DNA of 64,000 bases from Nitrospira sp. (GTDB lineage: Bacteria; Nitrospirota; Nitrospiria; Nitrospirales; Nitrospiraceae). The stretch lies in contig JAUYAO010000050.1 of assembly GCA_030692565.1 (NCBI GenBank), positions 1-64,000 on the forward strand, written 5' to 3'. This document shows, piece after piece, positions 5,575 to 16,830 of the stretch. The notes beneath the pieces are model-generated. The model made no database searches. It was not told the origin of the DNA and worked only from the letters and a program-made list of their open reading frames with translations. How positions within the stretch are numbered: position 1 is the stretch's first letter; each line of letters starts with the position of its first letter. Both the position numbers and the translations under genes were made by a program.

Positions 5575-8196
5575 TTACCGATTTGCACGCCCAGCTCGGA
5601 CTATGGGACGGACACGTGCCGCCTCACGGATGCCCTCCAGCGCAACTTTCATTTGCTCGTATACACTTACCGCGAGTGGGCTAGCAGTCTCCAAAGTTAC
5701 CGCGATACCGTATGGAATCGACTCGGCAAGCGTGCTCCCCGCTTCCAATCGACAATTGACCTGTATGGGAGCGGTGTCGCCTTGGGCTATGGGCACAGCC
5801 TGCTCGCCTTCCAGAATTTCGTGTTGGACGGTGCCGCGGGTGGCAGCGTTATGATCGACGTCGCGTCGTTTCAATTGCAGTTGTTCTACTGGAGGGTCGA
5901 ACCACAGATCGGCGATCCGGTAGGAACGGTGACGTGTGTTGATCGGTGTGAGCCACGCCAGGCTAATGGTCATCCGTCGACCAACACGCTGCGCGCTCAG
6001 AGCCGATGGAAGCGGGACTCGATAGACATGTGCTTCGCCGGTATTAAGACGGCCACAACCGAGCATGATGACGCGTTGGTCTGTACACACGCTGCCGCGA
6101 ACCCAGTCAGCTTGGCCATATCCCAGAAACTGTGCACAGGCACGCTTCACACGATTCCAACGCGCAGTGCCATTGTCTCGCTCATTCAAGGCAGCATCAA
6201 TCACGGACTGAAGGTCGCTCCAAGAAGCTCCATGAACAAGTAGAGCCTTTAGCAGAACCGAGATCAGCTCATCCGAAAGGGTGTCGCCTCCGGGTTCGGC
6301 ACGAAGCGCGTTGATTTGTTCATACAATTGGGCCGCCCGGCGAGCGGTCAGAGCCGTAGCATTGCTGGTCCCACAGGCTCGCGTGGTGTGGTTAGGTGGG
6401 ATCGCTGTTCCCCCAGGAGCGGCCACCTGCTGACCCAGCTGAGTTTGGTTTTGCGGTATTTTGAGCAAGGCGGGGTCAGAGCCGCCACTCATTATCTGTG
6501 GAACATAGTGTTGTCGACCACCGGCAACGAGGATGTCCGGCTTAATGGAACGACGAAACCCGCTAGCCACAGAAGAAATAGGGCTGCAATAGGTGGCATT
6601 GCGGAGAGGGTCGACAATAGTTGGCGTTGGGCTATTAGGCCCTAGGTCCGCGTGTACAGCTCCCACGGTAAGCGCATTGATGGACTCTGACGGAGCAAGC
6701 AGGCGTCTTTCTATGCGATTACGTGCCATAGCGCGAAATGTTTGTGCACGCAGATTCTCGTCGGAAAGGGTCGCTAACTGCGCTGCAGGTACCTCAAGAG
6801 CAATATCCTCGTAATGGTTACCTGCACTGACGATGAATACGACTTGGTATTTCCAGGCAAGCCAGTCCAGCAAGCGAGCCCAAGGACTCATCTCACGATC
6901 GAAGAGCTGATTGGCGTCTCCGATGCTGAAATTGATCGCCTTAACTGTCGGCGCCACCGCAGGCGTTACCCCATCACCTTCGAATATCCGCCGCACTGCA
7001 CGAAAGGTTAGGTCGACTGGCAGACTTCCTTCTGGCAACTGCTCCCATCGGATGTTATAGATGTCAGGGCGACCGGGATGCATGATTGGACGTGCATAGA
7101 CTGGGCGTTGCAGCGCACCATCGTTCGCATCCAGTTCTCCGTGAACGATTAGGGAGGCCATCGCGGTACCGTGACGCTGCTCACCAGCATTGTATCGAGT
7201 AGAAAACTCATCTGGATCGTCTATGATTAGTCGATCTTGTAGCGTCGCATGGTTTTCGAGCGGGAGACCATCTAATAGACCTACAACGGGATCACCTTGG
7301 GGAATGGGTTGTTGGCGAAAGCTTCCCGGCACCGACTCGGCCGGATGGGCGATGGCAACTTGTCCCATTGAACAGAAATACTTGATGTCTGTCAGACGCA
7401 GAAGTTTTGTGTCCTGGCCTGCATTGAGTGCATCAATAGTAGCCTGGACCTGAGACGCAGGCAGATCGACGAGTACACCATGGTAGTCGATCTCTGGAAT
7501 TGCAGATTGAGTAATACACTGACCACGAACTTCCCGAACAACATTCTGGAGCCGTCCATAAGCCTCAGCTCGCTTTCCAGCCGATTGACGGCACCATAAC
7601 TCAACTTCAAAACGGATCGTTGCTCTATTTTCGGCAAGGCATTCATTCCACCATTCAAGAGTATGGCGCTCTTGCAGACGGTCCCTCACGCTCCATGGGC
7701 GCACATCGTTCAGGTATTTGAAGATCGAGGCTAACGTCCCAAAGTTACGTGGTAGCTTTTCATCCCTTGACCGACACCAGATTCTCCATAGCTGGACGAT
7801 TTCGGTTAATTTTGCTTGGTTACTCATAACAATGAACAAGCGTCCAGGCAGTGGTGTCACGGAGGCACTCTGTTCAAAGAAGGCTGGAGATGGCTCAGCA
7901 ATATCAACTTCAAAGTCCCCAAGCCATTCCATTCCTCCGATTCGCCGAACGACATTCTGGAAATCTGAAACGGACCCTGCAACTTCGAATACGACGACCT
8001 GCTCTGGGTCAAGGCCAGCCGTGTCTGCGCGGACTATTCCAAAACTCTGGGAGAGAGCTTGAAAACGAGAAGCAAGCCGTCTCTTCTGCTGCGCCTGGGT
8101 TGGACGTCGCGGAGGTGGTGGTGGAAATGCCGATGATAAGACCTGCCTGGCAGCAACAGTCGCGGCGGGAAATATAAGGATTGGTTTATCGGGCAT
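5575..8196 (-). CDS. S8 (subtilisin-like) serine peptidase paired with AAA+ ATPase
   Basis: This 873-residue protein has a full subtilase catalytic set: Asp309 in VVGLLDG, His342 in RHGTAMAS, the oxyanion Asn460 in VSAGNHY and Ser611 in CGTSNATA. There is no signal peptide, so it should act in the cytoplasm, unlike secreted subtilases. The first 300 residues form a separate N-terminal region and the last 200 a C-terminal beta-rich region. It follows the AAA+ ATPase gene after only 12 bp and is almost certainly co-expressed with it. Such ATPase-subtilase pairs recur in variable regions and are suspected conflict or defence systems; that role here is inference. Confidence 0.85.
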   Translation of the reverse strand: MPDKPILIFPAATVAARQVLSSAFPPPPPRRPTQAQQKRRLASRFQALSQSFGIVRADTAGLDPEQVVVFEVAGSVSDFQNVVRRIGGMEWLGDFEVDIAEPSPAFFEQSASVTPLPGRLFIVMSNQAKLTEIVQLWRIWCRSRDEKLPRNFGTLASIFKYLNDVRPWSVRDRLQERHTLEWWNECLAENRATIRFEVELWCRQSAGKRAEAYGRLQNVVREVRGQCITQSAIPEIDYHGVLVDLPASQVQATIDALNAGQDTKLLRLTDIKYFCSMGQVAIAHPAESVPGSFRQQPIPQGDPVVGLLDGLPLENHATLQDRLIIDDPDEFSTRYNAGEQRHGTAMASLIVHGELDANDGALQRPVYARPIMHPGRPDIYNIRWEQLPEGSLPVDLTFRAVRRIFEGDGVTPAVAPTVKAINFSIGDANQLFDREMSPWARLLDWLAWKYQVVFIVSAGNHYEDIALEVPAAQLATLSDENLRAQTFRAMARNRIERRLLAPSESINALTVGAVHADLGPNSPTPTIVDPLRNATYCSPISSVASGFRRSIKPDILVAGGRQHYVPQIMSGGSDPALLKIPQNQTQLGQQVAAPGGTAIPPNHTTRACGTSNATALTARRAAQLYEQINALRAEPGGDTLSDELISVLLKALLVHGASWSDLQSVIDAALNERDNGTARWNRVKRACAQFLGYGQADWVRGSVCTDQRVIMLGCGRLNTGEAHVYRVPLPSALSAQRVGRRMTISLAWLTPINTRHRSYRIADLWFDPPVEQLQLKRRDVDHNAATRGTVQHEILEGEQAVPIAQGDTAPIQVNCRLEAGSTLAESIPYGIAVTLETASPLAVSVYEQMKVALEGIREAARVRPIVRAGRANR

Positions 8197-8208
8197 GCAG
8201 CCCCTATT

Positions 8209-9180
8209 TTAACGAGACTCGGAACATGCCCGGGACTTCCAAGCGGATAGCCGTTCCTGAGCGATTTTCTGAACATTACCGTTAGGAATCGTGAGAACGT
8301 AACGGCGAGCGAGGTCTCGCACGAAGTCCTCGATATCTGAATAACTCGCGCCGCGAAATGATTTCGAAAAACTACCAGGTCGCAGACCGCGTGCGAATTC
8401 CAATTGAGCAAACAAGCGATTGAGGAACACGGTTACTTGTTCCTGTGTAGGACGAGGTAACTCCAGGCGAAGCTGAAACCGACGCCAAACGGCGCGGTCT
8501 AACAGCTCCCGATGGTTCGTAGCCGTTACAACGACAACGTGTGGGGGCAAACTGTCGATCTGCAGCAAGAGCGCACTGACCACACGTTTGATTTCTCCTG
8601 TTTCGTGTTCATCACCGCGTTCTTTCCCCAGGGTCTCGAATTCGTCAAAAAATAGGACGCAGGCTCGTTGTCTGGCATAGTCAAAAACTTTTCGCAGGCG
8701 AGTCGCTGTTTCGCCCAAATAACTTCCGATAATACCTTCGTATCGGATCGATAGCATGGGTACCATAAGCTCATGTGCAAGAGACTCTGCCAAAGATGTT
8801 TTGCCATTTCCGGGTGGCCCGACTAAGAGCACTCGATGTCTCGGTGAAAGGCCAAAAGACCGTAGAAGGTCAGCACGTCGATGCTCCTCTATCAGAGAGC
8901 GACACTCTTTGGCCACTATCGGCGGCAAAATAAGACTATCAAACTCACGTTCGGGGGAAGCCTCATAGACCAAGTCTCCAACTGGAGATGTAGAAGAACT
9001 GATGGGCTTGGGCTGACCATGAGCACCGTTGGCATAAGCAGCAGTCAGTTGATCTGCAAGCATAGTGTGTTTCTTGGCTCGCTCTTCTGCAATTAGGGCT
9101 TCAACAGCCTGACGGAAACGTGGATTAGAGGTGTCTTTCCCTGTCTTTATTAGGGAAATCAAAAGATCAGATCTTGCCAT
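8209..9180 (-). CDS. AAA+ ATPase, partner of the S8 peptidase
   Basis: This protein of about 323 residues has Walker A GPPGNGKT, a Walker B LFFDEFE, a sensor-1 ATN (VTATNHRELLD) and an arginine-finger region AVWRRFQ, the FtsH/VPS4-like AAA pattern. I placed the start at the ATG beginning MARSDLLISLIKTG because this is the usual N-terminus of the group; an ATG at 9249 would add 23 residues and has a poorer ribosome site. The core is preceded by a helical N-terminal region of about 100 residues. It probably unfolds or delivers substrates to, or gates, the adjacent peptidase. The ATPase call is firm; the joint function is inferred. Confidence 0.85.
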   Translation of the reverse strand: MARSDLLISLIKTGKDTSNPRFRQAVEALIAEERAKKHTMLADQLTAAYANGAHGQPKPISSSTSPVGDLVYEASPEREFDSLILPPIVAKECRSLIEEHRRADLLRSFGLSPRHRVLLVGPPGNGKTSLAESLAHELMVPMLSIRYEGIIGSYLGETATRLRKVFDYARQRACVLFFDEFETLGKERGDEHETGEIKRVVSALLLQIDSLPPHVVVVTATNHRELLDRAVWRRFQLRLELPRPTQEQVTVFLNRLFAQLEFARGLRPGSFSKSFRGASYSDIEDFVRDLARRYVLTIPNGNVQKIAQERLSAWKSRACSESR

Positions 9181-9300
9181 ATCGAGACTACTTTCTGAAG
9201 AGCCGCCAGTCCCTCTAACTCCACAAGGGATATCTAATTGATAGCGCATCCTATCATGAAGAAGGCATCGTCCTCGACGGGTTTCTCAGACCTCGTTGGA

Positions 9301-9648
9301 TCAATGCCGTATCGCAGGTAATACAATTTGAAGTCGCCCTAAATTCCATCGCACGCCGAACAGTATTTCCTGGCCGACTCGCTGTTGCAGTTTCCCCTCA
9401 ATCTCGTTGATTAGTTGTTCGCGCCGACGGTCGATCTCGTCTTGAGCATCGAACAGGGCCCGGCGGCGTTTGCCTTGTTCGACCTCGCGTGCACCTTGAA
9501 GCGAGCCGGTATCGAAGAGGTCGTGCTCAGTGACTCGATGCGAAGCGTGATGGGACTTCTCGCGGTCCTCCAGCAGGATGCGCGGCTCCAGCTTCGGCCG
9601 GTTCTCTTTCCCAATCCAGGTGAGTTCGAGTTTGGTTCTTTGGGTCAC
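9301..9648 (-). pseudogene. Chimeric fragment: Mod N-terminus fused to SNF2-helicase C-terminus
   Basis: The open reading frame starts MTQRTKLELTWIGKENRPKL, which matches the first residues of the Mod at 3901-5538 almost exactly through RVTEHDLFD. It then switches to KRRRALFDAQDEIDRRREQL, which matches the extreme C-terminus of the SNF2 helicase at 11758-14889. Neither half contains a catalytic domain. The simplest reading is a deletion or recombination between two copies of a mod/helicase locus, leaving a 115-codon scar. It overlaps dinD by 4 bp. It is open and may be translated, but no function is expected. Confidence 0.8.
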
Positions 9649-10520
9649 CCTTTTCCCTCGTGACCGACCAGCCCCTGAGCATCTTTATCGTCCAGCTCTA
9701 GTTTAGGCGGTGTACTTTTGACTCGCTTCTCGACCTGAGCAATGTGCTCAGCGGGATTTATCTTTTCTGGGAGAGTGCCGCCAATGCGTTTGATGGCCTC
9801 CCTTACTTCTTTGCCGACCTGTTCGTGGGTTTGGATGGCGACGTGCTGACTGCCGACACCCTCTCTTGCCAGTTTATCGCGTGTTTGTGTCATCCTGAAT
9901 TGATTGGCTGCCAGTTCCGTGCTGTCCATTCGGTCCATCAGTTGCTCATTCTTAGGGATGCCCTTGTGCTTTTTAATCGCCTCATTTCCCAGTCCACCAT
10001 AGAGTCCTTTATAGCCTGCATCATGAAACACACCGAACATCTTATCCTGCACACCGGCATTACGGGCGGCCCCCGACAATGCTTTAAACTCCTCGGAGGT
10101 GTGCTTCCGCAGCTCCAATCTTTCCAGGTCTCTGGCTAGCCCATCGGACAGTTCCTGACGGCGTGTTTGGACGGCAAAGTATTTCTGAGCAAAGGCGATC
10201 TCCGGCTTGCGTGGGTCGCCGTTTTGGGCAATCAGGTAACAGGCAAATCGGGAAAGGTGAAAGTCGGGAACTTCCCTCGCACTCCTCGATCCAATCGTCA
10301 CCATTTTGCCGGCGCCGGCAAAATGGTTGGCAGGCTCATTTCCCGATTGTTTACACGAGGCTATCGCTCTCGTGATCGCATCCTCGAAACGTCTCCATTG
10401 GCTATAGCCGAGCAGCGGCTGAAGATCGCGAGCGCTCCAATACTCGGCTCCATGCTCATTCAGTAGTTTCAGGCTCTCAAAAGACTTGCCACCTAGAACA
10501 GGCAGATTCTCTTCCGTCAT
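9645..10520 (-). CDS. dinD: DinD-like DNA damage-inducible protein
   Basis: This 291-residue protein begins with a BRO/KilA-like N-terminal segment (YWSARDLQPLLGYSQWRRFEDAI). It continues with DFHLSRFACYLIAQNGDPRKPEIAFAQ-type sequence and the C-terminal DinD pattern ending in EKINPAEHIAQVEKRVK. E. coli DinD is SOS-induced and binds RecA to disassemble filaments; homologues are common in mobile and defence regions. The ATG at 10520 has AAGGAGAGC upstream. I see no clear LexA box in the preceding 160 bp. The 163 bp between this gene and 10684 hold no recognisable gene. Confidence 0.85.
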   Translation of the reverse strand: MTEENLPVLGGKSFESLKLLNEHGAEYWSARDLQPLLGYSQWRRFEDAITRAIASCKQSGNEPANHFAGAGKMVTIGSRSAREVPDFHLSRFACYLIAQNGDPRKPEIAFAQKYFAVQTRRQELSDGLARDLERLELRKHTSEEFKALSGAARNAGVQDKMFGVFHDAGYKGLYGGLGNEAIKKHKGIPKNEQLMDRMDSTELAANQFRMTQTRDKLAREGVGSQHVAIQTHEQVGKEVREAIKRIGGTLPEKINPAEHIAQVEKRVKSTPPKLELDDKDAQGLVGHEGKG

Positions 10521-10683
10521 GACGGCTCTCCTTTTTCCAGCCCATGTTCCACTTCCTTGTCATCGACATATTGGATCGCCCCAGCAGGCTGGTTTTCCTT
10601 TCATCGGTTCTTCTTCTTTTTGAAACCTGGTTCTCATTCCTCGGGAATGATGTCGCCCAGAACCTCCGGGTCACCGAGCAGTT

Positions 10684-10848
10684 TCACCAGCCGAGATCCT
10701 TGCGAATCTGTTTGAACGCCCGCGCAACCGGCACCCCTGTTCGTACCCCTCGCCGCCATGCGGAGAATCGGCGTTCAGCCAACGCTTCCCGATCCTTGAT
10801 CGGCAAACGAATGGCTTCGCGCTCGATCTCAAGTAATTTTTGACTCAT
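10684..10848 (-). CDS. Short addiction-module-like protein, probably degraded
   Basis: The 54-residue product starts MSQKLLEIEREAIRLPIKD and continues REALAER, the pattern of the short addiction-module antitoxin family (about 70 residues, 'LSxxERAELAERLL'). After AERR it diverges into FSAWRRGVRTGVPVARAFKQ and stops, so the second half does not look like the family. No toxin partner follows. I read it as an eroded antitoxin relic; translation is possible because AGGAACGAGC sits upstream of the ATG. Confidence 0.45.
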   Translation of the reverse strand: MSQKLLEIEREAIRLPIKDREALAERRFSAWRRGVRTGVPVARAFKQIRKDLGW

Positions 10849-10907
10849 TGCTCGTTCCTCCGTGTTAATCAATACCGTAAAGACGACACGGGTGTCGAAC
10901 AGGTCGT

Positions 10908-10941
10908 GGCCTGCCTGTGCGTGTCCGCACGCAGACAGGCC
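10908..10941. repeat. REP-like palindrome at a gene-fragment junction
   Basis: Left arm GGCCTGCCTGTGCGTG, a 4-nt loop TCCG and right arm CACGCAGACAGGCC form a hairpin with one 2-nt gap. It lies exactly where the reverse-transcriptase-like fragment stops being recognisable. The CCTGCCTG arm start recurs in the inverted repeats that bound the GIY-YIG insert at 12242-12523. Confidence 0.6.
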
Positions 10942-10949
10942 GGTTCTCT

Positions 10950-11096
10950 GAGTCGTTCATCTAGACTGGAAGCAAAATCGACGTAACCCACGGGGTCAAG
11001 GACGAAATCGTCGCGACTATCCCCATGGGCCAAGTGCCATCCGGTTAGCATAATTTCTGGACGGCAGAGCTGTTGGAACAGTCTGTTGTGAGCCAT
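10950..11096 (-). pseudogene. N-terminal fragment resembling a reverse transcriptase (RNA-directed DNA polymerase)
   Basis: From the ATG at 11096 the frame reads MAHNRLFQQLCRPEIMLTGW and then HLAHGDSRDDFVLDPVGYVD. I associate this pattern with the N-terminus of bacterial reverse transcriptases of the type found in accessory islands (WHLA..DSRDDF.LDP....DF). After about 49 residues it runs into the palindrome at 10908-10941 and loses similarity. No RT catalytic motif (xxDD) remains, so it is a dead 5' fragment. The family call is from memory of the pattern and is moderately secure. Confidence 0.45.
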
Positions 11097-11211
11097 GAGA
11101 CTTTAATTACTCCTGCCATCATCGGGAGGCGTTGCATCCGCAACGGCTTTTGCTTCTGCCAAGGTCAGCACGTACTTCTGTACTGGCTGTCGGGACCCCA
11201 GGATTCGAAGA

Positions 11212-11340
11212 TCATGTCAGCGTCCACCGGATGGAGAACAGCATCGTCTGCGAGACGCGTTGTTGCAGCTTTCCCTCAGTCTCGCTGATCAGCTGCTCGC
11301 GCCGGCGATCGACCTCGTCCTGTGCATCGAACAGGGCTAG
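11212..11340 (-). pseudogene. Isolated C-terminal tail of a second SNF2 helicase
   Basis: Translating this stretch gives LFDAQDEVDRRREQLISETE followed by GKLQQRVSQTMLFSIRWTLT and a stop at 11212-11214. This is a diverged copy of the last 40 residues of the helicase at 11758-14889 (LFDAQDEIDRRREQLINEIE ... RWTVK). Nothing else of that second helicase remains: the sequence upstream of 11340 belongs to the AlbA_2 pseudogene. With the copies at about 9383-9480 and 11803-11890 it makes three tails of the same gene family in 2.5 kb. Confidence 0.75.
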
Positions 11341-11345
11341 CCTTC

Positions 11346-11761
11346 TCATGCCCGCTTCTTCTTCAGCGCCTTCATGCCTTTTTCGGTCAGCCGATACTTC
11401 TGCAACCTGCTGTTCGGTTTGTCGGGGATGGTCAATTCGAGCAGCCCCGCTTCGATCAGTGGCTTGATGAGGCCGTTGCGGAACTTGGTGCGGTTTTGCC
11501 GCCCGAGGGCCTCCATCATCACAAGCAACGGTTGCGCTTTACGGCAGAGCCGCAGGGCTTCCACTTGGTCCCGACTTGATCCCTGGGCTCGGCCCCGGCC
11601 CCCGGGATGATCGGCGCCCGGAACGTCACCACGAGGGATCCTCCCCAGTCGTCGAACGTGGGTGGGGCGATGCCATAGCGCTTGAACTCCAACGTCGGCC
11701 CTTCCCTCTGCTTGAGAAGTCGGTTCAGTTCCTTGGAGTCTGCCGGTGCTTTGGAGTTCAT
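11346..11761 (-). pseudogene. Collapsed AlbA_2 (Schlafen-type) ATP-binding protein gene
   Basis: The ATG at 11761 overlaps the helicase stop (ATGA). It reads KELNRLLKQREGPTLEFKR, the start of AlbA_2 'divergent AAA' proteins, then jumps directly to FDDWGGSLVVTFRAPI, which normally lies hundreds of residues later, so most of the gene is deleted. Around 11570-11600 the frame also shifts: the continuation SRDQVEALRLCRKAQPLLVM and the winged-helix end (LIEAGLLELTIPDKPNSRLQ ... LTEKG) are in another frame. Intact relatives are about 450-500 residues. Both lesions make it non-functional. Confidence 0.75.
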
Positions 11762-14700
11762 TTCACTGTCCATCGAACGGTAAAGAGGCGCTCAGAGCTT
11801 ACCTTTTGTTGCAGCTTCCCCTCAATCTCATTGATCAGCTGCTCTCGCCGACGATCGATCTCGTCTTGGGCATCGAACAGGGCCCTGCGGCGCTTGCTTC
11901 GTTCGGCTTCGATCGCCTTGATCTGCTTTTGTCCGTCGAGCTTCTCTTCCAAGGTGAGCGCTGCCACGGCCGCCCTTCGGGCTTCCTTGATCTGCCGGTC
12001 AAATTCCTTAATCTCTCGTTCTAAGCCCACTTTCAAGTCATCGGCCCAGGCATCCAGTTTGTCGGCTTCAATCTCGAAGAATTCCGCATTGCGTTGCGAG
12101 ATGTGGCGGCGGATAGCGTCCTGACGTTCTTCCGTCCGCTTACGGAGAGTCGGAGGCTCAACAGATGAGCTTCCCGGCAGAGTGACTGTGGCAGGCAGAG
12201 AGAACAGCCGGCGGACAGCTTCCTCATCCAACACCTCGCCGCCTGCCTGCCGCGCCCGACCAGTCTCAATTTCACCCTTGAGCCACTTCCGTCCAAAGCC
12301 TGTCTTGAGCCATCGTTCTCGCTCCACCGCCTCTGCCCGTGATTGATACTCTTCGTAGTGAGCAATGCGAATAGGCTTATGGCAAGCCGTCCAGGCTGCA
12401 CCCCTTCCGGAACTGTGCTCCTCCCAACGTCGCGGCAGGTCGTCCGTCTGACCAATATAGTGACTTCCGTCATCGCATTCGACCGCGTAGACAAAAAAGA
12501 GGCCTGAGCGCGGCGCAGGCAGGTCGTCGGTCACTCCCGTAGAGATCAGATAGTCCTCGGCTTGATCCAACGCCTCCACGGTAAACAGCGAGAGGGTCAG
12601 CACACCAGACTTACCGACGAGTGGTTCGACCACGCTAACTTTGCCGTCATGTTTGCCATACTCGAAGGTCAGTTCTGCTGGGTTGAGCTGGCGGGTCTTT
12701 GCCTGCTCCAGCACATGCTCTGCCAGTGGATGTGCCAAGCGGTAGAGATGTGCTTCTCCAGTTCGACGAGGTAGTTCGTAGAGCCCCAGCGGGATCTCTC
12801 CTTTGAACGGACAGGAGCTGAGTCGGAACGAGGTGTCCGAAAGAAAGTCGGCGTGATCGCGCAGCTCAAAGCGAGTGAGTTGCATCAGGATGCGCTCATA
12901 TCGATTCAAGTACAGCCGTGAGCTTTCGTCGCTCACGCGTAGCTTTTCTCGTACCTCATCATCGAAGTGTTCGAACAGGAGCTGGCGCGCGCGAGTCATG
13001 GCTTCGTCGATTTGGGTGCCAAGCTCTCCCTGGAGCTGTTCAAATGAGGTCCTGATCTCCTGTGGTGTCCGGCACCGTTGATAGATGTCGTTAATCCGCT
13101 TTTCAAAATCCACGCCGGACTCAATCGCTCCCAGCACTTCGTCACTGGCCCCGAAGACTCCTTCAAACAACAGGAATTTCTCAGAGAGCAGCCGAAAGAC
13201 GTGCTGATCGGCCTCGTTATTCTGATTGAGGAAGTTCACCACGACGACGTCGTGCTTTTGTCCGTACCGGTGGCAGCGGCCGATGCGTTGTTCGATGCGC
13301 TGGGGATTCCACGGCAGATCATAATTCACGACCAGCGAGCAGAACTGGAGATTGATCCCCTCGGCTCCGGCTTCGGTGGCGATCATGATTTTCCCCTGGT
13401 CCTTGAAGTAGTCCACGAGAGCTGAGCGCAGGTCAGCCGAACGCGATCCGGTGATCCGATCCGTTCCCTGATGGTTCTGGAGCCATTCTTGGTAAATTTC
13501 CTTCGATCTCGGGTCGTTGTTCGAACCGTTAAAGAGGACGACATGGTCTTTCCACGGACTGTCGGCAAGCACTCGGAGGAGATATTCCTGTGTGCGCCTG
13601 GATTCTGTGAAGATAATGGCTTTCTGCGCCGCTCCCAATTCTTTTGCCTTGCCAAAGGCAGTGCGCAGAGCGGTGAGGAGGGCTTGCCCCTTCGCATTGT
13701 GGGTGATCGACACGGCGAGCTTCTGAAACCCTTCGAGGTCGTCAATTTCTTGTTGGATCGCTTTGCGGTCGGCTTGAGTGAGCGCTTCAGGCGCAGCCGC
13801 CTCTTCTTCCCACTCTTCCGCCATCTCGTCCAGAGCTTCGAAGTCTTCTTCCAGGGCTTCTTCAAGGGGGTTCGGCCCTTCGGCAAGACGAAGGCGTTCG
13901 CGAAGGCGCTGGCTCATTGAATGAAGCGCTCCGGCGATCGCAAACGAAGACGAGGCCAAAAGCTTCCGGAGGACAAGGGTCATCAGGGACCGTTGGCTCG
14001 ACGGGAGGGCCTGCAGATTGTCCCGACGGAGATAGTCGGACACTAAATGATAGAGCCGATCTTCATTTTCCGCAGGCGTAAAAGGCTGCATCATGGGTAA
14101 GCGCTTGGTATAGCGCACATAGGGCAACACCTGACGGCGAAGCGTCCGCTTACAGATCGGCTGCAGACGGGCTTTCAGGATATCGAAGGTCGGCTTGTTG
14201 TGCAGATTGGCGAATTGCTCTCGAAAGCTTTTGAGATCGCCGAAGATGCGGTCGTCCACCACACTGACCAGCCCATACAATTCGAGCAACGAGTTCTGCA
14301 GCGGCGTGGCGGTAAGCAGGAGCTTGGGTGCGTCTTTGAGCGCCTGCTTTATTGTGTTAGCGATGATGTTGCCCGGCTTGTAGACGTTCCGCAAGCGGTG
14401 AGCTTCGTCGATGACAACCAGGTCCCAACGCATGAGGCTGATCTCTGCCGCTTTGGTGCGGGCGAACTGATAGGAACAGATGATTACGTCGTCGCACTCG
14501 AACGGACGGACATGCCCCTGACGCACGGTGGCGTTGTAGGACTTCGTTTCCAAGATGCGGCAGGGCAAGAAGAACTTTTCCTGAAGCTCTTGGTGCCATT
14601 GCTTGCGGAGATTTGAAGGCGTGATGACCAGGACGCGGCGCTTCGGCTCAGCCCATATCTGTGAAAGCACGAGACCAGCTTCGATAGTTTTTCCCAGACC

Positions 14701-14889
14701 AACTTCGTCTGCAAGGAGAGCCCCTTTCGAGAGAGGCGATCGGAATGCGAAGAGCGCAGCCTCGATTTGATGTGGGTTGAGGTCTACCTGTGCATCCACT
14801 AACGCGCTTGCGAGCTTTTCGATGCTATCGGATGGACAACGTTTCGTGAGTTCGTGGGCGAAATACTTGGTGTGGTAAGAAGTTAGCAT
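11758..14889 (-). CDS. SNF2-family helicase with inserted GIY-YIG nuclease domain
   Basis: This protein of 1043 residues has Walker A DEVGLGKTIE, a DEAH box (VVIDEAHRLRN), motif III TATPLQN and the C-terminal helicase motif VI QRIGRCHRYGQ, the set of SNF2/RapA-like double-stranded-DNA translocases. I chose the ATG at 14889 (MLTSYHTKYFAHEL); an open frame extends upstream to 15135 but is unlike the family. Between TDD and GEVLDEE, 94 extra residues form a GIY-YIG nuclease module (FVYAVECDDGSHYIGQTDDL ... GFGRKWLK). The C-terminus is a charged coiled coil. The AlbA_2 gene follows by ATGA overlap. Helicases of this type usually travel with Mod/Res genes in defence islands. Confidence 0.88.
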   Translation of the reverse strand: MLTSYHTKYFAHELTKRCPSDSIEKLASALVDAQVDLNPHQIEAALFAFRSPLSKGALLADEVGLGKTIEAGLVLSQIWAEPKRRVLVITPSNLRKQWHQELQEKFFLPCRILETKSYNATVRQGHVRPFECDDVIICSYQFARTKAAEISLMRWDLVVIDEAHRLRNVYKPGNIIANTIKQALKDAPKLLLTATPLQNSLLELYGLVSVVDDRIFGDLKSFREQFANLHNKPTFDILKARLQPICKRTLRRQVLPYVRYTKRLPMMQPFTPAENEDRLYHLVSDYLRRDNLQALPSSQRSLMTLVLRKLLASSSFAIAGALHSMSQRLRERLRLAEGPNPLEEALEEDFEALDEMAEEWEEEAAAPEALTQADRKAIQQEIDDLEGFQKLAVSITHNAKGQALLTALRTAFGKAKELGAAQKAIIFTESRRTQEYLLRVLADSPWKDHVVLFNGSNNDPRSKEIYQEWLQNHQGTDRITGSRSADLRSALVDYFKDQGKIMIATEAGAEGINLQFCSLVVNYDLPWNPQRIEQRIGRCHRYGQKHDVVVVNFLNQNNEADQHVFRLLSEKFLLFEGVFGASDEVLGAIESGVDFEKRINDIYQRCRTPQEIRTSFEQLQGELGTQIDEAMTRARQLLFEHFDDEVREKLRVSDESSRLYLNRYERILMQLTRFELRDHADFLSDTSFRLSSCPFKGEIPLGLYELPRRTGEAHLYRLAHPLAEHVLEQAKTRQLNPAELTFEYGKHDGKVSVVEPLVGKSGVLTLSLFTVEALDQAEDYLISTGVTDDLPAPRSGLFFVYAVECDDGSHYIGQTDDLPRRWEEHSSGRGAAWTACHKPIRIAHYEEYQSRAEAVERERWLKTGFGRKWLKGEIETGRARQAGGEVLDEEAVRRLFSLPATVTLPGSSSVEPPTLRKRTEERQDAIRRHISQRNAEFFEIEADKLDAWADDLKVGLEREIKEFDRQIKEARRAAVAALTLEEKLDGQKQIKAIEAERSKRRRALFDAQDEIDRRREQLINEIEGKLQQKVSSERLFTVRWTVK
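12242..12523 (-). mobile_element. 282-bp inverted-repeat-flanked GIY-YIG insertion inside the helicase gene
   Basis: On the coding strand the insert starts with CCTGCCTGCGCCGCGC and ends with GCGCGGCAGGCAGG, which are inverted repeats differing by one 2-nt gap. Exactly 282 bp (94 codons) separates the two halves of a continuous helicase motif (TDD/GEVLDEE), so the insert keeps the frame. It encodes the GIY-YIG core: YAV, then HYIGQT, a conserved Arg (PRRWEEH), a Glu-rich helix (EAVERERWLK) and GFGRKWLK. Stand-alone genes of this size and sequence are common. An IR-bounded module inserted in frame suggests a mobile coding element. Confidence 0.75.
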
Positions 14890-15055
14890 TGCGATCGCAG
14901 AATACCTTGTTATTGCCAGGAAATCACCCCGCCTTTGGGGGGTCAGGGGGTATCGCTGAAGGCAATCCGGCAGGGTGGGAAACAACACGCGAAGGTGGCG
15001 CAAGTGCGGGTAGTGAGCGGGGCGGGCCAAAGTCGCAACATTGAAGTCTATGGAG

Positions 15056-15241
15056 TCACTGATCTGCGAGGAGAAACGGTCCTGGATTCTTTGCCACGAC
15101 CTTGCCGTTTTTTCACACGTAGATCGGTGTGCCATGCATCCGGGCGGTCTTCCTTGCCACCTTGGCGGCTCTTCGGAGTGCCCGTCCGACGGCTTGTGAA
15201 AAGGCGCTCGGAGATTGTTTCTTAGGCGATCGCTTGTTGAT
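15056..15241 (-). pseudogene. Dead small gene with in-frame stop
   Basis: After a perfect-looking GAGGAG ribosome site, an ATC stands where a start codon is expected. The frame then reads KKQSPSAFSQAVGRALRRAA and KVARKTARMHGTPIYV, meets TGA (15113-15115), and continues KNGKVVAKNP. I recall intact relatives as short proteins ending '...GTPIYVWENGKVV', where the stop replaces the Trp codon. Both start and Trp codon appear mutated. The remaining bases to 14890 hold no recognisable gene. Confidence 0.45.
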
Positions 15242-15269
15242 GTTTGCTCCTCGGTATGGAGATGGCTCG

Positions 15270-15522
15270 CTACCGATATACCTCGTCATGTGTTCCGATG
15301 TCGAGGAGGACGATCTCTTTCTTGGTCACTCTCAAGGTAAAGCGTGATGCGATGCGAATGAGTCAGGCTGGCGGCATGCAGCCCTTCCAGTTCGCCTTTG
15401 AGCGCGTGAAGTCGGAGGTGTGGCTGAAATGGATCGGCTTCTAGGCTTCTAAGGACTTTAGCCAGGGGCTTCTTTAGTTCGGGGTGGCCAGCGCGTACAT
15501 CAGGATTCGAGTTCAAGCGCAT
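15270..15522 (-). pseudogene. RelE/YafQ-like toxin, frameshifted
   Basis: The frame from 15522 reads HPELKKPLAKVLRSLEADPF and LKGELEGLHAASLTHSHRITL, the core of RelE/StbE-type mRNA interferase toxins, and then goes wrong. Removing one A from the AAA at 15339-15341 restores the expected ending TLRVTKKEIVLLDIGTHDEV-Y-R and a stop at 15270. The N-terminus before HPELK is also shorter than in the family. The gene follows its antitoxin with a 23-bp overlap. It is probably inactive, unless the extra base is a sequencing error. Confidence 0.7.
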
Positions 15523-15784
15523 CGATGAGTGTTTTGGTAGAGATGCGACGAATGCGCCCTTCCTTGAGGTCTGTCAAGGATCGTTTGATTCGGGTCACGT
15601 ATGACTTGCGATATCGCTCGGTCAATTCCTGGTACTGCGCTTCGGCCAGGATGGCGTAGGTGGGCTCGTTGTCCTTAAGGACATGGACCGGCCCACGCTT
15701 CAGCGCGTTGTCGATGACAGAGAGTCCTCGACGCCTGATTTCGGTGGCTGGAATGGTTTTTCGTACCGCGTTGGATGATCGCAT
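15500..15784 (-). CDS. Phd/YefM-type antitoxin
   Basis: This 94-residue protein reads TIPATEIRRRGLSVIDNALK, then GPVHVLKDNEPTYAILAEAQYQ, the prevent-host-death fold in which an N-terminal DNA-binding part represses its own operon and the C-terminal helix neutralises the toxin. Its partner is the frameshifted toxin at 15270-15522. If the toxin is truly dead, this is a relic antitoxin. It forms the right border of the accessory island; core genes start at bioB. Confidence 0.75.
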   Translation of the reverse strand: MRSSNAVRKTIPATEIRRRGLSVIDNALKRGPVHVLKDNEPTYAILAEAQYQELTERYRKSYVTRIKRSLTDLKEGRIRRISTKTLIDALELES

Positions 15785-15825
15785 GGCGTTATGCTCGCCG
15801 AAGCGATGAAAGACTACAAGATCGA

Positions 15826-16830
15826 TCAGCTCGCCACCGGCTGCTGGTAGTCCACTTCGATCTTGAAGCCCAGATCTTCGATCATGCCCCAGACTTCTGG
15901 TGCTGGGGAGCCTGGTGTCGTCAGGTAGTTATTCACGAAGACCGAGTCGGCCGGGTAGAGGGAGAGGGGTTGGAGGCTGCGGAGGTTGTGCTCACGTCCG
16001 CCGGCGATGCGGAGTTCCGTGCGCGGATGCAGAAAGCGGAACAGGCAGAGGACTTTGAGGCAGCGCTGCGGCGTGAGGGCGGCGATGTTCTCCAACGGCG
16101 TGCCTTCTACCGGATTGAGCATGTTCAAGGGAATCGAGTCGGGTTTCACGTCGCGCAGGGCGTCGGCCAGATCGATGAGATCCTCGTTGCTTTCCCCCAT
16201 GCCGACGATCCCGCCCGAGCAGATTTCCAATCCGGCCGCGCGTGCGTTCTTGATAGTCGAAAGGCGGTCCTGGAACGTATGTGTGGTGCAAATCGACTCG
16301 TGGAAGGCCTCACTGGTGTTCAGATTGTGGTTCACGCGGTCGACGCCGGCGGCTTTCAGCCGCTTGGCCTGCTCATCGCTCATCAAGCCGAGCGAGCAGC
16401 AGATCTGAATCGGGATTTCCTGTTTGATCGACCGGACGGCTCCGGCGATTTCATCGATTTCACGATCCAACGGGCTGCGTCCGCTGATGACGATGCAATA
16501 GCGCTGGGCCTTCGAGGCGGCAGCTTCGCGCGCGCCTTGGATCATCTGTTTCTGCGGGAGCAGATTGTAGCGTTCGATCGGCGCGTTTGAGACGGCGGAT
16601 TGCGAGCAATAGTGGCAGTCTTCCATGCAGGCGCCGCTCTTGGCGTTCTGCAGCATCTGCAGGCGGACGGTGCGGCCGAAGTATTTCGAGCGGACTTGAA
16701 AGGCGGCATGCAGCAAGGCGAGGAGGTCGTCATCCGGTGCGTCCAACACGGACAGCGATTCCGCTCTCGTGAGGGGCTCGTCGGTGAGCGCTTTGTTCGC
16801 CAGTTGCATGTAATCGGTCATGACAGACAC
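15826..16830 (-). CDS. bioB: Biotin synthase
   Basis: This 334-residue radical-SAM enzyme inserts sulfur into dethiobiotin to form biotin. The radical-SAM cysteines are C68, C72 and C75 in GACMEDCHYCSQ, and conserved BioB stretches follow (YNHNLNTSE-like VNHNLNTSEAF, SGGIVGMGE, LNMLNPVEGTPL). Length is normal. It is the last gene of the long minus-strand core block and follows lapB after 69 bp, so it may be co-transcribed or have its own promoter. No other biotin genes are in the window. Confidence 0.96.
   Translation of the reverse strand: MSVMTDYMQLANKALTDEPLTRAESLSVLDAPDDDLLALLHAAFQVRSKYFGRTVRLQMLQNAKSGACMEDCHYCSQSAVSNAPIERYNLLPQKQMIQGAREAAASKAQRYCIVISGRSPLDREIDEIAGAVRSIKQEIPIQICCSLGLMSDEQAKRLKAAGVDRVNHNLNTSEAFHESICTTHTFQDRLSTIKNARAAGLEICSGGIVGMGESNEDLIDLADALRDVKPDSIPLNMLNPVEGTPLENIAALTPQRCLKVLCLFRFLHPRTELRIAGGREHNLRSLQPLSLYPADSVFVNNYLTTPGSPAPEVWGMIEDLGFKIEVDYQQPVAS

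Follow-up and report, generated by a model that had tools for sequence, protein, structure and literature searches.

The window analysed here, a stretch of 64,000 nucleotides from Nitrospira sp., carries an in-frame insert in a gene for a DrmD-like SNF2 helicase. We consider this insert most probably a mobile DNA element that is autonomous and spreads within protein-coding genes without any splicing step (probability about 0.75). Its features and those of its host gene are collected in Table 1. The minus-strand open reading frame of the host (15135-11758, 1125 aa) stays open across the insert, with no stop codon inside it, and the host protein reads TDD on one side and GEVLDEE on the other. 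The two ends of the insert are inverted repeats of each other save for a 2-base GC bulge (CCTGCCTGC[GC]CGCG versus CCTGCCTGCCGCG). Both ends pair in the single-strand DNA fold, although the folding energy of the whole element is ordinary (z -0.56). Elements of this kind are about 280-300 bp long, a multiple of three. The insert has neither a start nor a stop codon of its own and can therefore probably be translated only within the host protein. Only one of 23 copies has a methionine within the first 25 residues, and free-standing relatives (such as L064-L066 and L069) start with ATG. A sequence-only reading had placed a 282-bp in-frame insert at this position between TDD and GEVLDEE, and had described it as a complete GIY-YIG module that leaves the frame open on both sides. 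The first claim proved exact to the base, and the second was confirmed by Pfam, AlphaFold2 and the open reading frame.

Table 1. Positions of the insert, its parts, its host gene and a short palindrome in the window
Feature	Position	Strand	Remarks
Mobile element (probable)	12242..12523	-	282 bp, 94 codons, phase 2; homologous sites empty
5' terminal inverted repeat CCTGCCTGCGCCGCG, encodes LPAPR	12509..12523	-	first bases of the insert's coding strand; codons fixed at DNA level across phyla
3' terminal inverted repeat CGCGGCAGGCAGG, encodes RQAG	12242..12254	-	last bases of the insert's coding strand; pairs with the other end in the DNA fold
GIY-YIG catalytic domain PF01541	12301..12495	-	conserved YIG, R, H, E residues
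Host gene, DrmD-like SNF2 helicase	11758..14890	-	frame to 15135; start probably ATG at 14890
Short palindrome CCTGCCTGTGCGTGTCCGCACGCAGACAGG	10910..10939	+	30 bp; intergenic, 3' of helicase, outside large ORFs; expected 0 per window

The host protein matches the Pfam families SNF2-rel_dom and Helicase_C. It also matches PADLOC DrmD (E = 7e-213) and NCBIfam DISARM_DrmD_b (E = 8e-215, which is under the curated cut-off of that model). Near the helicase gene lies an IetAS-type defence pair (the subtilase-like IetS and the AAA ATPase IetA; 5575-9249), and a match to PDC-S13 was found at 9645-10520. Together with the helicase, these genes form a small defence island. Two partial minus-strand copies of the helicase's C-terminal tail are present 3' of the gene (9343-9534, 66% identical, and 11218-11385, 63% identical). 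They could be remnants of related helicase genes, or could reflect repeated recombination at that end.

Every insertion site was empty in relatives wherever this could be checked. The helicases of four members of the same bacterial family (G038, G023, G058 and G012; L032-L035) are uninterrupted at the site, with 74-89% identity around it, and read V-[T/A]-D-[N/S/H]-G-E-V-L across the insertion point. The closest of them (L032) has GTGACCGACAATGGCGAGGTG where the window has GTGACCGACGA[282 bp]CGGCGAGGTG. A second species (G042, L003) is filled at the same codon, and its element protein is 89% identical to that of the window. Close homologues of the helicase thus mostly lack the domain (four empty, two filled), and its presence in all of them, which would have refuted the sequence-only reading, was not observed. 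At HsdR site a, the empty sequence GCAAGGA^CGGCTCG (L177; GCAAGGACGGCTCG in L177 and L130) and the filled sequence GCAAGGA[CCTGCC...CAGG]CGGCTCG (L005, 282 bp in brackets) differ at the junction by exactly 282 bp, the alleles being from different genomes. HsdM and HsdR proteins joined across their flanks align in single pieces to uninterrupted plasmid genes. For these two queries 172 and 668 records were matched, and in 171 and 228 of them, respectively, at least 80% of the query was found in one place. TrmD, Ogt, HsdM and HsdR also align to solved structures around the insertion point. By hand count the target is GA^CGG at 8 of 13 sharp-ended sites, usually an Asp-Gly pair. We did not find a near-identical pair of strains differing by the element alone, so the insertions cannot be dated as recent.

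Profile and peptide searches recovered 32 distinct copies at 18 sites in about 12 bacterial phyla. By Pfam and homology, the hosts are the DrmD-like SNF2 helicase (one site), HsdR (four), HsdM (two), HsdS (two), an N6_N4 methylase, an Eco57I-type methylase, DUF1156 methylases (two sites), an SNF2/NOV_C helicase, another SNF2-type helicase, TrmD, Ogt and a RibD_C (dihydrofolate-reductase-like) protein. According to their record titles, the copies come from Nitrospira, Omnitrophota, Bacteroidia, Deltaproteobacteria, Brocadiaceae and other Planctomycetota, Chloroflexi, Patescibacteria groups, Gammaproteobacteria, Nitrospinota, Ignavibacteria, Aerophobetes and Verrucomicrobia. An assembly artefact was rejected, as independent genomes and phyla contain the element. 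At all 18 sites it lies in one orientation only and in the host's frame, reading LPAPR...RQAG where the ends are typical; they are atypical at HsdR site d and in L046, L051 and L171. If frame and orientation were random, the chance of such agreement at 18 independent sites would be about (1/6)^18, on the order of 1e-14. The many unrelated genes that hold the element in frame lend good support to the proposal of a mobile coding element that can enter genes without destroying them. Two copies (L169 and L170) each contain an internal stop and are probably decaying. In 18 whole genomes that were searched, the in-frame copies scored 124-162 bits and all other GIY-YIG genes no more than 76 bits; therefore, the in-frame family is discrete in these genomes. 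A divergent free-standing member (L165, 99 bits) lies outside any host frame. Plasmid and phage collections yielded no close copy, just more distant GIY-YIG genes with <45% identity, and IMG/VR gave a single weak edge match only.

The ends of the element are preserved at the DNA level, beyond what the peptide demands. Across 23 copies, almost invariant codons encode the terminal PAP and QA (CCT 22/22, GCG 23/23 and CCG 22/23; CAG 22/22 and GCA 22/22), and for the invariant core residues (YIG, GR, LK) several or all synonymous codons are in use. The inner stem covaries: where one arm is altered, the other arm follows (CCGCAATCGG in L053, CCTGAG in L059). The inverted repeats are thus conserved around other GIY-YIG copies, and the sequence-only reading, which their absence would have refuted, stands on this point as well.

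One could argue that the insert is a recruited functional domain, in which a nuclease fusion was selected for better defence and the inverted repeats are incidental scars. In favor of this view, restriction-modification, DNA methylase or SNF2/defence-type genes account for 15 of the 18 sites, purifying selection acts on the domain (see below), and the host in the window is DrmD-like and near an IetAS system. But TrmD, Ogt and a RibD_C protein host the same element too, the conservation of its ends extends to synonymous positions in the DNA, most homologues lack it, and nuclease-free palindromes with the same ends occur in frame in housekeeping genes. Given the first two of these points, we set aside a recruited defence domain as the sole explanation and regard it as unlikely.

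The domain itself looks like an intact GIY-YIG nuclease and is under purifying selection, but cleavage is inferred only, as there are no biochemical data. The insert matches Pfam GIY-YIG (PF01541) with E = 5e-14, and AlphaFold2 predicts a confident GIY-YIG fold (pLDDT 90.5), for which the best PDB match is the UPF0213 GIY-YIG protein 1zg2, followed by Slx1. YIG, R33, H37 and E70 are invariant in 22 copies, which meets the criterion for the GIY-YIG superfamily. Between the species of the window (G000) and G042, dN/dS is 0.07 and 0.085 for the host parts and 0.16 for the element, where 9 of 24 changes are nonsynonymous (p = 2e-4 against neutrality). Therefore, both the interrupted helicase and the nuclease domain are maintained. 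The suggestion that the helicase may gain a nuclease activity is backed by the conservation of catalytic residues and by purifying selection only, and the activity remains an inference.

The insert might instead be removed after transcription or translation, like an intron or intein, leaving the host protein unchanged. Its clean position in conserved genes and the pairing of its ends in the single-strand fold would fit this view. On the other hand, there is no Rfam match and no Hint/intein domain, the insert begins with Leu and is usually followed by a host Gly, and nearly every copy keeps an open frame across the insert, a feature that RNA splicing would not require. We therefore consider removal very unlikely. 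As to the individual candidates, an intein was rejected, since Pfam gives GIY-YIG only in the insert, and Leu in first place with mostly Gly after the insert contrasts with the required nucleophile and Cys/Ser/Thr at +1. A group I or group II intron was rejected as well, with no Rfam match (E up to 1, positions 9000-16000 of the window) and almost nothing between the domain and the ends. The sequence-only reading had likewise noted the lack of splicing residues, and this held: neither an intein/Hint domain nor an intron was detected.

Palindromes of 24-48 bp that share the ends of the element were found in many genomes, and the one in the window (Table 1) is probably a non-autonomous relative. 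Counting the ends, 47 of 70 palindromes from the Nitrospira family (p = 8e-9) and 35 of 40 from Planctomycetota (p = 2e-12) have a length that is a multiple of three, as do 26 of 31 with duplicates removed (p = 1e-8). In-frame short palindromes lie in HsdR, HsdM, HsdS, tyrosine recombinases, MurF, HemC, RecG, CinA, a methylase and a CO-dehydrogenase flavoprotein; others are intergenic. In the tyrosine recombinases (integrases), the palindrome sits at the same place in three genomes, and in the HemC of L208 it forms a clean 16-residue insertion relative to solved homologues. The reading frame is LPA...QAG in 19 of the 24 palindromes that were judged clear (p = 5e-6). One linker position of HsdS holds differing palindromes across genomes and, in L058, the GIY-YIG element. 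The earlier comparison to palindromic coding elements therefore fits well, as genes also contain short in-frame palindromes with the same ends. The preference of the palindromes for GA^ targets is modest (21/64). One genome, G1090, contains seven palindromes of exactly 48 bp (L202, L204-L209) with near-constant arms and wholly different loops, several of which are in frame in core genes (MurF, HemC, CinA).

Palindromes are enriched near in-frame GIY-YIG copies (5 of 21 loci, compared to 1 of 54 loci with other GIY-YIG genes; p = 0.006). At the genome level, co-occurrence is weak, and only the local association is significant. A search of G1090 gave no GIY-YIG match despite its seven palindromes. 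Since palindrome-rich genomes do not reliably carry a GIY-YIG copy, trans-mobilization of the palindromes is not established. This leaves room for a passenger model, in which another enzyme (e.g., a REP-type Y1 transposase) or hairpin replication errors move the palindromic ends and the GIY-YIG domain has no role. Same-ended short palindromes in genomes without a detected GIY-YIG copy speak for this model, as does L157, where one gene holds both a GIY-YIG element and, in frame, a REP-associated transposase unit. But the nuclease is the sole conserved coding content of the element and evolves under purifying selection, for which a passenger would have no need. Nor does the element itself have any other transposase linked to it. 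We consider the passenger model unlikely.

We therefore return to the reading of an autonomous element. The element tree groups by site, with 17 changes for 18 site labels, the minimum possible. In HsdM, same-site elements are 84% identical compared to 64/47% for the hosts; for HsdS, the respective values are 74% versus 44% and 63% versus 31%. The copies in the NOV_C helicase nest inside the clade of HsdM site a, for which the support of 96/95 belongs to the whole clade. Defining recurrently occupied sites as those with related copies in different hosts, based on the tree and the identity comparison, the criterion of recurrent occupation known for homing endonucleases is met for HsdM a and b, HsdR a and d, the NOV_C helicase and HsdS. 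It is possible, though, that the higher identity of elements than of hosts at a site reflects stronger constraint instead of homing.

In the mechanism we propose, the fused nuclease would cut or nick its target, in many cases at GA^CGG on the coding strand, and repair templated from the element would copy it into the break. The substrate may be the empty site or the hairpin ends, and the encoded GIY-YIG domain would be the simplest engine. Within one gene family this would amount to homing, because copies that occupy the same site in different phyla group together on the tree, and their identity to each other often exceeds that of their hosts. Jumps to new genes, such as the one suggested by the nested NOV_C copies, would be rarer, with the hairpin-forming ends marking the exact boundaries. 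The short palindromes of 24-48 bp would probably be non-autonomous derivatives that use the same or related machinery. Copies would persist because they land in frame in tolerant loops of genes often exchanged between bacteria, and restriction and defence genes are the apparent main vehicles. Mobility via the GIY-YIG nuclease is likely but inferred, since neither transposition nor cleavage has been observed; the alleles described above make the mechanism directly testable.

The closest known systems are the Rickettsia palindromic elements (RPEs), in-frame coding palindromes for which no enzyme has been described (PMC2229807, PMC10969869). Like the present family, they consist of palindromes with inverted-repeat ends that lie in frame in genes for unrelated proteins and are translated with the host, and their mobility mechanism is unknown. 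By organization (no sequence comparison with RPEs was made), the RPE criterion of a palindromic unit in frame in many unrelated genes is met by both the long and the short forms. However, RPEs are about 105-150 bp long and were described from Rickettsia, whereas the present family measures 24-48 bp or about 280-300 bp, occurs in about a dozen phyla, and encodes a GIY-YIG domain in its long form. A GIY-YIG domain within a type I restriction subunit has been reported before: the HsdR protein MCA0838 of Methylococcus capsulatus contains an inserted GIY-YIG that is absent from an 80% identical homologue, which its authors viewed as a very recent insertion (Dunin-Horkawicz et al. 2006, PMC1564403). 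This is probably the same phenomenon, but the ends of MCA0838 were not compared. It was presented as a lone curiosity in that survey of GIY-YIG proteins, the relevant sections of which name no boundaries, inverted repeats (CCTGCCTG/CAGGCAGG in our element) or palindromic relatives.

GIY-YIG homing endonucleases of the I-TevI type and inteins are also selfish nucleases in conserved genes that recur at the same site in distant hosts. In contrast to these, the element has no intron, intein or splicing, its nuclease stays in the predicted protein, and it has inverted-repeat ends and many host genes. With REP/RAYT systems it shares the organization of a small enzyme-coding unit bounded by a type of palindrome that also occurs alone in genomes. 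But it has a GIY-YIG instead of a Y1/HUH fold and lies in frame inside genes rather than mostly outside them. The RAYT/REP criterion is unmet, as the element encodes GIY-YIG only and no Y1 (HUH) transposase. Likewise unmet is the criterion for a DDE insertion sequence or MITE, since no target-site duplication was found at the HsdR site, the only one tested at the nucleotide level. Based on the literature comparison and the failed intein, intron, DDE transposon and RAYT tests, we therefore place the element among the in-frame palindromic coding elements, where it has a good chance of forming a class of its own. No description of such a family with its ends, multiple hosts or palindromic relatives was found in the open-access literature searched, which does not cover most subscription journals; the element is real and, within these limits, apparently undescribed so far.

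It would be a case of selfish DNA existing as one of the translated domains of host proteins, neither beside them nor spliced out, and it joins two old puzzles, namely the movement of coding palindromic elements and the presence of GIY-YIG domains within unrelated proteins. It also calls for caution, as some "extra domains" of bacterial proteins may be mobile insertions without host function. A bolder reading, which in our view could equally well turn out right or wrong, is that of an autonomous "protein-domain transposon" that has no start, stop, promoter or splicing, must land in frame, encodes its own mover, and drives the tiny in-frame palindromes of core genes across phyla. If this is true, coding palindromic elements such as RPEs would gain the kind of engine that they have been lacking.

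Some further arrangements were observed around GIY-YIG genes. The HsdR copies L055, L057 and L163 carry a variant GIY-YIG element with a right end that lacks the usual repeat; its left end sits after a different in-frame palindrome (GCCTGTCTGCGTGCGG.CACGCACAGGCAGA in L057 and L163). In the minus-strand DUF1156 methylase ORF of L157, which also holds a GIY-YIG element, a second in-frame insertion encodes a REP-associated tyrosine transposase (NF047646, E = 5e-24, above the cut-off) and is bounded by GGTGFQPV...TGKMPVP. The free-standing GIY-YIG genes of L064, L065, L066 and L071 appear to lie just 3' of a tRNA-like sequence, part of which is repeated on the far side in some of them. Judged by eye only, they might represent another GIY-YIG mobile unit that targets tRNA ends. 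In L008 and L009, again by eye, GIY-YIG genes adjoin an apparent tmRNA or tRNA 3' end (CTCCACCATTCGAC...), with an inverted copy of adjacent sequence nearby.
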